NCBI GenBank assembly: GCA_018222765.1
Contig: JAAEZT010000003.1
Location: 62,001-126,000, forward strand
Length of the DNA stretch: 64,000 nt
Reading direction: 5' to 3'
Source of the DNA: a bacterium
Lineage (GTDB): Bacteria; Verrucomicrobiota; Verrucomicrobiia; Verrucomicrobiales; Akkermansiaceae
This document shows, one piece after another, positions 3,194-54,910 of the stretch (its first letter is position 1; every line of letters begins with the position of its first letter). The notes beneath the pieces were generated by a model. That model did not search any database. It had not been told where the DNA came from and saw only the letters and a list, made by a program, of their open reading frames with translations. The position numbers and the translations under genes were made by a program.

Positions 3194-3220
3194 CCCTAAT
3201 GCAATTTTATTGCATTAGGG
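3194..3220. promoter_or_regulatory. Perfect 27-bp palindrome, candidate metalloregulator operator 1
   Basis: The arms CCCTAATGCAAT and ATTGCATTAGGG are perfect inverted repeats of 12 bases around a 3-base centre. The core reads TGCAA-N5-TTGCA. It lies just before the metal-associated cassette, where a Zur- or Fur-type repressor site would be expected. No T-run follows, so a terminator is unlikely. Confidence 0.65.
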
Positions 3221-3225
3221 GGGAA

Positions 3226-3240
3226 TGCAAGTAGTTTGCA
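3226..3240. promoter_or_regulatory. Second TGCAA-N5-TTGCA palindrome, candidate operator 2
   Basis: This repeats the core of the preceding palindrome with the same 5-base spacer, its centre 26 bases further on. Only the inner arms match. It covers the TTG codon at 3236, which argues that translation of the next gene begins further downstream. Confidence 0.5.
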
Positions 3241-3244
3241 CCTC

Positions 3245-3835
3245 GTGATCGCTGCCCCACCAACCATCGCACCACATTCCCTCCGTGATCTCGCGGACGG
3301 AATTCATCAACAGATGTATTTCTGGGGACAGGATGTTTTGCGTCCGGAGGGAAATTTTTTGGTCGAGTATGGCTTCGAACGCCTCCCCTCGATGGGGCTG
3401 AAGGGAACCAGCCGCTATCGTTGCGAATGGCAAGGCGGATCCATCGAACTTTATGGAGCTTGTGCTGGTTGGTACGGAAGTGACGGCGGGTTTACCTTTA
3501 TTCGTCCCCGTCACCGTTGTTTCGTCTGGCTTTCAGGTGATGTCACCCCCATTCCCGGGGCGTGGGAAAACGACCTCATCGACAGAGCTGCGGGGAAGAA
3601 CGAACTCTATCAGGCTTCACTCCCCTTCATCGACTGGCTCCTTTCCTATGAAAAGGCCATTGTCAATCGCTTCGGCTCCGGCTATCGCCAAGCTAACTAT
3701 GCGAGCTACCGGAAGGTCCCCAAAGCCAAAGCATGGATCGAACCTCCGCTCGCGTTGAAATGGTTTCACAACTTCCGCAACTCTCCCGAACTGCTAGTCA
3801 GGCCCAGGAAACTTGCGCGCAAAAATAATCTCTAA
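3245..3835 (+). CDS. Conserved-looking cytoplasmic protein of unknown function, first gene of metal cassette
   Basis: About 196 residues with no signal peptide or membrane segment and no family that I can name. The composition looks like a real protein: W-G-Q-D-V, G-T-S-R-Y-R and repeated W/Y-G-S blocks, and a basic tail. The start is unsure: TTG 3236 lies inside the second palindrome, GTG 3245 is used here, and ATG 3314 would remove a plausible N-terminal helix. The gene is followed at once by a COG0523 GTPase and then a MerC-like protein, and preceded by tandem palindromes, so a role in metal (probably zinc) homeostasis is inferred from context only. Confidence 0.65.
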   Translation: MIAAPPTIAPHSLRDLADGIHQQMYFWGQDVLRPEGNFLVEYGFERLPSMGLKGTSRYRCEWQGGSIELYGACAGWYGSDGGFTFIRPRHRCFVWLSGDVTPIPGAWENDLIDRAAGKNELYQASLPFIDWLLSYEKAIVNRFGSGYRQANYASYRKVPKAKAWIEPPLALKWFHNFRNSPELLVRPRKLARKNNL

Positions 3836-3836
3836 C

Positions 3837-4880
3837 GTGACAAGTCCTACTCTTAGATCCCTGCCTCCGGTGATCGCATCACGCCCCATGCTGATGCTCT
3901 CCGGCTTTCTTGGTGCCGGAAAAACCACCTTGCTTAGGGCCCTCCTCGGAGAACTCACCTCCCGCAGTCTTCTCGCCGATGTTATCATAAACGACATCGA
4001 AAACGCTGAAATCGATCGGGGAACCTTACAAGACCGCGCAGCCTCAGTCGAGGCCCTCACCGGTTCCTGCGTGTGCTGCGAAGGCATGGACATGCTCTAC
4101 GGAATGATCCTCAAGGCATCCAACAGCAAGCATGATGTCCTTTTGATTGAGCTCAACGGCACGGCCGATCCTATCCCTCTGCAAGAGACCTTCACCCTCA
4201 TGCAATCTTCCTTTTTGCTTCAGCCACGCTGGCAGATCTGTGTAGTCGACGCCCGATTCTTCGGTCAGCGAAATCAGTTCCGTGAACTTGAACGACTTCA
4301 ACTCGAAAGCGCGAGTCACTACTACCTCGCCCACACCGAGGCCGCCGAGGCCCAAGACCTCACGCTACTCGAATCAAGAATCAAGGCGATTAACCCACGC
4401 GCCAGCCGCACTAATTCTGCCGAACTCGCCACCTCTCTCAGCCAGGCGGTCCGACAAAACCGGCGCCATCACGCCGCCCTCACCAAAGAAAAATCCAAGC
4501 ACGATCTCCTCACCGACTTCTCTCCTCGTCCCCCGGCCAAGCCGCACCTTCACGATCGACATCAACTCGCTCACGAATTCACCGGATGCAACATCGTCTT
4601 CCCAAAAGCCGTGGAACCCTCGCGAGTCGATGCCTGGCTCAAAGAACTTCCGCCCTCGGTCATTCGCACCAAGGCGCTCCTCACCCTGAGCACCAAGCCC
4701 AACCAACGCTTCCTCTATGAACGAGTTGGCACGCAACTCTCACCCAGACCGATTCCGGTCCGCGCTGTCGACTCCGTCCCCTGCTCGGCACTCTTCATCG
4801 GCTCGGACCTCCAACCAGACGAAATCCTCCGAATCACCAGCGAGGCCCTCCACCCCGATTGCCACTTTCCAGAAAAATGA
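3837..4880 (+). CDS. COG0523 (CobW/ZNG1-like) metal-chaperone GTPase
   Basis: About 347 residues from GTG 3837, directly after the stop of the previous gene; TTG 3813 or ATG 3888 are alternatives. Walker A is G-F-L-G-A-G-K-T-T (K near residue 29) and the family metal motif is C-V-C-C at about 78-81. The G3E-type E-L-N-G-T-A-D-P follows, and a CobW C-terminal domain fills the last 90 residues. COG0523 proteins deliver zinc, cobalt or nickel to target enzymes. Odd point: where the guanine-specificity motif N-K-x-D is expected, after the strand ending Y-Y-L-A, the sequence reads H-T-E-A. The stop overlaps the MerC-like start (ATGA), so the genes are translationally coupled. Zinc is the likeliest metal, by context. 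Confidence 0.85.
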   Translation: MTSPTLRSLPPVIASRPMLMLSGFLGAGKTTLLRALLGELTSRSLLADVIINDIENAEIDRGTLQDRAASVEALTGSCVCCEGMDMLYGMILKASNSKHDVLLIELNGTADPIPLQETFTLMQSSFLLQPRWQICVVDARFFGQRNQFRELERLQLESASHYYLAHTEAAEAQDLTLLESRIKAINPRASRTNSAELATSLSQAVRQNRRHHAALTKEKSKHDLLTDFSPRPPAKPHLHDRHQLAHEFTGCNIVFPKAVEPSRVDAWLKELPPSVIRTKALLTLSTKPNQRFLYERVGTQLSPRPIPVRAVDSVPCSALFIGSDLQPDEILRITSEALHPDCHFPEK

Positions 4881-5521
4881 ACACCACTACTCTAACTCCT
4901 CCAGCGATCGATCTTCCGAAGGCCGATCGAATCGGCGTCGCTGCCTCCGTCCTCTGTGCCATTCACTGCGGACTCGCGCCAGTCCTACTCATCGCCATGC
5001 CCGCCTTCGGACGCATCTGGGCCCATCCCGCGTCCCATGCGCTTGTCGCGATTTTCATCGTGCCACTTGCAGCCTTCTCCATCCGTAAAGGCTATCGTAC
5101 CCACGGAAAACGCTGGGTCATGGTCTCCGCAATGATCGGAATTCTTTTCGTGCTCGTCGGGGCTGCTCTCCCGGCCTTCTCAAAGGAAACGCCAATCAAT
5201 AATCCCGCTCCTCAGGTCGCAGCCCCGATCGAAACTGAGGAAACCGAAGAGGGCACCTGCGACGCCCCGACCTGTGAAGAGACTACTTGTGATTTATGCC
5301 CTTCCTTGGCCGAGACCGAATCGTCTGAGGAGCCTATCGCCTGCATCGATAACTGCTGCCCCAGCGTGCAAGTCAGCGAGACCGGAGAAATGTCACTGCA
5401 CATTCCACCCGCCGCCATCATCACCACTCTCGGAGGGGTCTTTCTCATCGTCGCTCACATCGGTAATCTCTGTGGCTGCGCCCACGCATGCCGACAAGCC
5501 ACCTGCGGCGAATGCGCATAG
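4877..5521 (+). CDS. MerC-domain integral membrane protein with Cys-rich loop
   Basis: 214 residues from ATG 4877, which overlaps the preceding stop by ATGA. The N-terminal half has three hydrophobic segments and the MerC signature C-A-I-H-C-G-L-A-P, a cysteine pair at the start of the first segment. A hydrophilic loop (about residues 100-160) is rich in Glu and contains several C-x3-4-C and C-C pairs, then a fourth hydrophobic segment and a Cys/His-rich tail (C-G-C-A-H-A-C). MerC proteins move Hg(II) or other thiophilic metals across the inner membrane. With a COG0523 GTPase beside it, transport or sensing of zinc is more likely than mercury resistance; no merR, merA or merP is present. Confidence 0.8.
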   Translation: MNTTTLTPPAIDLPKADRIGVAASVLCAIHCGLAPVLLIAMPAFGRIWAHPASHALVAIFIVPLAAFSIRKGYRTHGKRWVMVSAMIGILFVLVGAALPAFSKETPINNPAPQVAAPIETEETEEGTCDAPTCEETTCDLCPSLAETESSEEPIACIDNCCPSVQVSETGEMSLHIPPAAIITTLGGVFLIVAHIGNLCGCAHACRQATCGECA

Positions 5522-5527
5522 CCTTGC

Positions 5528-5850
5528 ATCTCTCCTCAATGCTTCAGTCAAACTTCCGGTCACGGTTGTTTCCAGTTTTCTCGGATCGGGAAAACTACCC
5601 TGCTCAATCACCTTCGCCGTGACCGTGACAACAAACGGCCGGCCGTCGGGAGGTTGTGCTAAACGGACGCAACAGGGACTGCGACGCCCTGACCGCCATA
5701 CTCGATGACGACTCCCTCACGGAGGAGGAAATCACCACCACAAGAGAAAGTGGCACAAGCTCTTCCCCCGGTCCTTTTCCTCAATGGAAATCATGGGAGA
5801 TGAGTGACTTCGGTCTTCAGCTGAAAAAGTTCTCCGCTCCCAACAGTTGA
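5528..5850 (+). pseudogene. Decayed second COG0523 GTPase (internal deletion and frameshifts)
   Basis: Two ends of a COG0523 protein are joined without the middle. At 5545-5640 the frame reads V-K-L-P-V-T-V-V-S-S-F-L-G-S-G-K and then needs a shift (one base missing in the Walker A lysine/threonine region) to continue as T-T-L-L-N-H-L-R-R-D-R. From about 5653 another frame gives V-V-L-N-G-R-N-R-D-C-D-A-L-T-A-I-L-D-D, an L-T-E-E-E stretch, and P-G-P-F-P-Q-W near 5775-5795, matching the family's C-terminal L-D-x-C-L-L-T and D-P-F-P-x-W. The metal motif and G domain between them are gone. This looks like a dead paralogue of the kind usually found beside an intact copy. Confidence 0.75.
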
Positions 5851-54870: not shown

Positions 54871-54910
54871 AAAAAAAGACCGCTAAAAATTTTAGCGGTC
54901 TTTTTCTTTT
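54871..54910. terminator. Bidirectional Rho-independent terminator
   Basis: GACCGCTAAAA and TTTTAGCGGTC are perfect inverted repeats, flanked by A-runs on one side and T-runs on the other, so it works on either strand. It sits 18 bases beyond the stop of the cytochrome/propeller gene that reads into it from the right. Confidence 0.85.

Follow-up and report, generated by a model that had tools for sequence, protein, structure and literature searches.

A putative Zur box and a new protein family in a predicted zinc regulon of Verrucomicrobiota

Two palindromes that stand in tandem before a three-gene cluster of a verrucomicrobial genome are probably (at roughly 85%) operators of a zinc-loaded FUR-family repressor, Zur, which would control a zinc-starvation operon and zinc importers. 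The cluster lies in a stretch of 64,000 nucleotides, here called the window, and encodes an uncharacterised protein, a COG0523-type GTPase and a MerC-domain protein. The preliminary description of the window had put forward a Zur-type box with the uncharacterised protein in its regulon, and the conservation of the motif together with its zinc-related target genes supports this idea in silico: the box appears to be a new, lineage-specific Zur box and to have a new protein family under its control. In a limited literature collection, a search brought up no paper that defines a Zur box or regulon for Verrucomicrobiota. The order Verrucomicrobiales, together with some other Verrucomicrobiota, would gain a testable zinc regulon and an operator that can be searched for.

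From the comparison of sequences we infer that Zur binds the box, that binding depends on zinc and that it represses transcription. One repressor dimer would occupy each 21-bp box, just upstream of the first gene of the operon. When zinc is sufficient, the zinc-loaded repressor would sit on the boxes and block transcription; during zinc starvation it would lose its regulatory zinc and leave the DNA, and the operon would be expressed. Co-expressed under the same box would be the ZnuABC importer, a ZnuD-like TonB-dependent receptor, TonB, surface-anchored proteins and a His-rich outer-membrane protein.

Tandem palindromes and the downstream operon

The preliminary description reported two TGCAA-N5-TTGCA cores, and a direct reading of the window shows both to be exact, the first at 3200–3214 (TGCAATTTTATTGCA) and the second forming operator 2 (table 1). 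The 27-bp palindrome that extends the first core is present as described, although 'perfect' slightly overstates it: 12 of 13 positions pair around the centre at 3207, and the mispair is the innermost one, T/T, beside the centre. Inside operator 1, at 3197–3217, the 21-bp consensus TAATGCAA-N5-TTGCATTA is matched at 16/16 positions. The second palindrome is indeed weaker and is centred on 3233, at the claimed distance. Core sequences with one mismatch number three in the window versus 1.9 expected, and enrichment within the window alone is uninformative. No recognisable sigma70-type promoter was found at the tandem-operator site. Among the other 27-mers of the window, one alone is as palindromic as operator 1; centred on 54889, this sequence (54876–54902, AAGACCGCTAAAAATTTTAGCGGTCTT) is paired throughout save for its centre and has a terminator-like form.

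Table 1. Positions of the two putative operators and of the three genes that follow them in the window.
Feature	Coordinates	Strand	Details
Putative operator 1	3194..3220	.	near-perfect 27-bp palindrome CCCTAATGCAATTTTATTGCATTAGGG
Putative operator 2	3226..3240	.	TGCAAGTAGTTTGCA; core and spacer as in operator 1, centre 26 bp downstream
Uncharacterised protein family, 199 aa, first gene	3236..3835	+	start TTG 3236 or GTG 3245
COG0523/CobW-type G3E GTPase, putative zinc metallochaperone	3813..4880	+	PF02492, E 7e-26
MerC-domain membrane protein	4877..5521	+	PF03203, E 8e-21; Cys-rich insert and tail

Open reading frame and profile checks bear out the gene order given earlier for the region after the palindromes. 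Because the reading frames abut or overlap, with the ATG of the MerC gene overlapping the stop codon of the COG0523 gene, the three genes are suggested to form one operon. The listed TTG start of the leading gene falls within the second box, and the GTG is an alternative. The start of the COG0523 gene is likewise uncertain, being either the TTG at 3813 or an in-frame GTG at 3837.

Conservation of the box

Across relatives, the conserved box extends to TAAYGCAA-N5-TTGCRTTA. The consensus was partly built from loci on which it was later tested, which makes its base frequencies partly circular; for this reason, the test was run against control palindromes and repeated on znuA, an independent gene family. 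Among 75 leading-gene loci drawn from a collection of species genomes, a box of at least 13/16 lies within 350 bp upstream in 41, compared with 0, 1, 7, 0 and 0 for five control palindromes; at 14/16 the count is 38 versus none for the controls. A good box is absent within 350 bp in the remaining 34 loci, and a box is present somewhere in 61 of 77 loci. The preliminary description had held that its reading would fail if orthologous cassettes lacked the palindrome; in fact the box precedes many of these orthologues. The search that it had suggested upstream of znuABC was also productive, finding a box of at least 13/16 before 18 of 30 znuA orthologues (controls, 0–1), and boxes likewise occur before COG0523 genes in the source genome and its relatives, as well as before MerC, ZnuD-like, TonB and FUR-family genes.

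The strict box occurs 50 times in the genomes of 58 relatives, versus a single match for a reversed control. When the ORF starts near 121 distinct boxes are listed, 110 of 159 belong to the zinc set. Zinc-independent ribosomal proteins are not among these box-adjacent genes, as seen incidentally in that listing rather than by a direct search. Control of zinc-independent ribosomal protein paralogues is a common, not universal, trait of Zur regulons. Paired boxes recur upstream of leading-gene orthologues, and among box pairs at most 80 bp apart 26 bp is the commonest spacing (14 of 52). Strict boxes are rare outside the order, where they stand in front of genes for a ZnuD-like receptor, an anchor-M protein and a FUR protein. 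Within the same family, genus g3 lacks the strict box in 22 of 22 genomes (G028 and G077 included), and the FUR gene that is linked to ruvB in other relatives is absent from all 22 as well. This suggests that g3 has lost the control system, both box and FUR, and gives the family one genus without either the box or its likely regulator.

Copies in the source genome

The exact core occurs eight times in the 4.33 Mb source genome, versus none for a reversed control pattern. Besides the pair in the window, contig C59 carries three copies in a span of 3.5 kb; the other three (on C16, C34 and C78) are inside ORFs and were treated as chance matches, as was a strict-box match within an ORF at C15:79243. 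The C59 copies belong to a zinc-uptake island (locus L009), which carries one further copy with one mismatch, at the start of a gene for a His-rich outer-membrane protein. Another box sits between a TonB gene and a FUR-family gene. Two surface proteins of the choice-of-anchor-M type, one of which carries a PEP-CTERM signal, are also encoded in the island, as is a TonB-dependent receptor; among NCBIfam models the receptor matches ZnuD best (E 4e-44, under the cut-off of that model). A weaker copy of the box (14/16) precedes a znuA-hyp-znuC-znuB operon on C84, and the second znuA-type operon of the genome, on C65, has no box upstream. Weak sites of this kind were used only with support from orthologues, since the extended pattern at three mismatches is close to background (14 matches versus 9 for the control).

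Comparison with known systems

Published proteobacterial Zur cores include GTTA-N5-TAAC (PMC4176598) and AATGTTATAWTATAACATT (PMC3516566). Like these, the verrucomicrobial box is a palindrome around one central base, its two 4-bp cores separated by five unspecified positions; it agrees with them in length, register and outer AATG/CATT (here AATGCAA-N5-TTGCATT), and it stands ahead of the same kinds of gene, namely znuA, ZnuD-type receptor and COG0523 genes. It differs in its inner core, which is GCAA/TTGC here and GTTA/TAAC there, in its conserved TAAY/RTTA flank and in the common occurrence of tandem boxes at a spacing of 26 bp. Promoters with several Zur boxes are known from B. subtilis yciC and S. 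coelicolor znuA (PMC6103462), where two boxes similarly precede a zinc-uptake or COG0523 gene; the box sequence is different, however, and the leading gene here encodes the uncharacterised protein. The closest earlier report concerns Luteolibacter yonseiensis, in which one palindrome lies before zepA; the same study noted FUR genes close to zepA in the PVC group (PMC10957091). The ZepA zinc-acquisition loci, those of the PVC group included, resemble the present clusters in bringing together PEP-CTERM surface proteins, COG0523, a TonB-dependent receptor, znuA and a FUR gene. The choice-of-anchor-M proteins described here are possible counterparts of ZepA; the text of the ZepA work defines no verrucomicrobial box or regulon.

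Candidate regulators

The source genome encodes five FUR proteins (PF01475 above cut-off). One gene is linked to ruvB (contig C21), another lies in the C59 island, and two more neighbour katG and suf genes respectively; the three FURs that are not candidates all lack a box. Some FUR genes carry boxes, the island FUR among them, and in several genomes FUR genes sit within the same clusters as the box. No box precedes the ruvB-linked FUR. A FUR of this type is present in most relatives and keeps a conserved His-x-Asp, Cys, His set, and it shares the structural Cys4 site (two CxxC) with the island paralogue. The predicted model of a ruvB-type FUR from a relative (L201) aligns with Fur, PerR and Zur structures, with Z 13.9 over 133 residues for 3f8n and Z 12.3 over 142 residues for 4mtd. 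In EcZur, the sensory N2OS site comprises H77, C88, H96 and E111. The FUR proteins do not reproduce these ligands as a set, and in the ruvB-linked FUR, which has its own conserved set instead, H96 alone has a clear counterpart; EcZur and actinobacterial Zurs likewise differ in their sensory ligands (PMC6103462). Because it is conserved in relatives within the order, keeps the putative site and is absent together with the box in g3, the ruvB-linked FUR is taken as the likeliest Zur. The island FUR may be a second or modified regulator.

Several FURs of zinc clusters lack the conserved, putatively sensory His and Cys: that at L009 9227–9676 (C59 of the source genome, G000), and those of L213, L221, L223, L224, L226 and L229. 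The loss in the Prosthecobacter-type cluster FURs falls on a tree branch separate from the island FUR.

Alternative readings

The protein on the box might be a FUR-family sensor of iron, manganese, nickel or peroxide, in which case the regulon would not be zinc-specific. Such a reading draws on the island FUR, which scores below the NCBIfam cut-off for Zur and has PerR and Fur as its nearest PDB sequences, on the differences from EcZur at the sensory site, and on the links that ZnuA-type and MerC-type proteins can have to other metals. It is nevertheless unlikely, as the targets match those of known Zur regulons, namely znuABC, the znuD-type receptor and COG0523 genes (Table 3, PMC6103462), and as the katG-, suf- and other-linked FUR paralogues and the second znuA-type operon are all without a box. 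A regulator from outside the FUR family (TetR-, ArsR- or MarR-like, for example), with FUR genes as mere neighbours or targets, would accommodate the lack of a box at the likely FUR regulator. We consider it very unlikely, given the register that the 7-1-7 palindrome shares with published Zur boxes, the FUR genes that carry boxes or sit in the same clusters, and the joint loss of box and FUR in g3.

A third possibility is that the palindrome forms a structural hairpin or ends transcription, for TTTTCTT follows the 27-mer on the minus strand, where the element scores as terminator-like. This was rejected and seems scarcely credible: there is no plausible minus-strand gene just to the right of the 27-mer to be terminated, and relatives conserve the 21-bp core and its fixed N5 spacing, not a hairpin and T run. 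In many genomes this core is found ahead of gene starts. Tandem operators of a zinc-loaded FUR-family repressor remain the preferred reading.

Products of the operon

The protein of the leading gene has no match in a profile search of Pfam and NCBIfam, and a Pfam scan of 60 family members gave scattered weak matches only. Its predicted structure is confident (pLDDT 92.9), and comparison of the model with PDB folds found no convincing match, the best being VIA at Z 4.0; weak, recurrent rows pointing to an NIS-synthetase fold were not trusted. With the search pattern used, relatives turned up in Verrucomicrobiota alone, and at 77 loci a COG0523-type gene is nearby in 46 and a MerC-type gene in 21. 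In silico evidence supports a new protein family within the regulon that the box defines. A family without a Pfam match or a clear known fold is thereby placed under probable zinc control. It is possible, if doubtful, that this protein is a new zinc-starvation factor partnering COG0523, and that the degenerate cluster FURs are zinc-independent competitors or tuners on the same box.

The COG0523 protein contains the Walker A sequence GFLGAGK (GxxxxGK), a CVCC (CxCC) motif and the cobW and CobW_C domains that mark the family. A literature search for a link between MerC and Zur found no paper. The insert and tail of the MerC-domain protein are unusually rich in cysteine (CDAPTCEETTCDLC, CIDNCC and CGCAHACRQATCGEC; window 5240–5515). 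Just past its gene, window 5536–5830 opens with a Walker-A-like sequence (VTVVSSFLGSGK) that continues in another frame (GKTTLLNHLRRDRDNKRPA), and it reads as a frameshifted, decayed second COG0523 gene.
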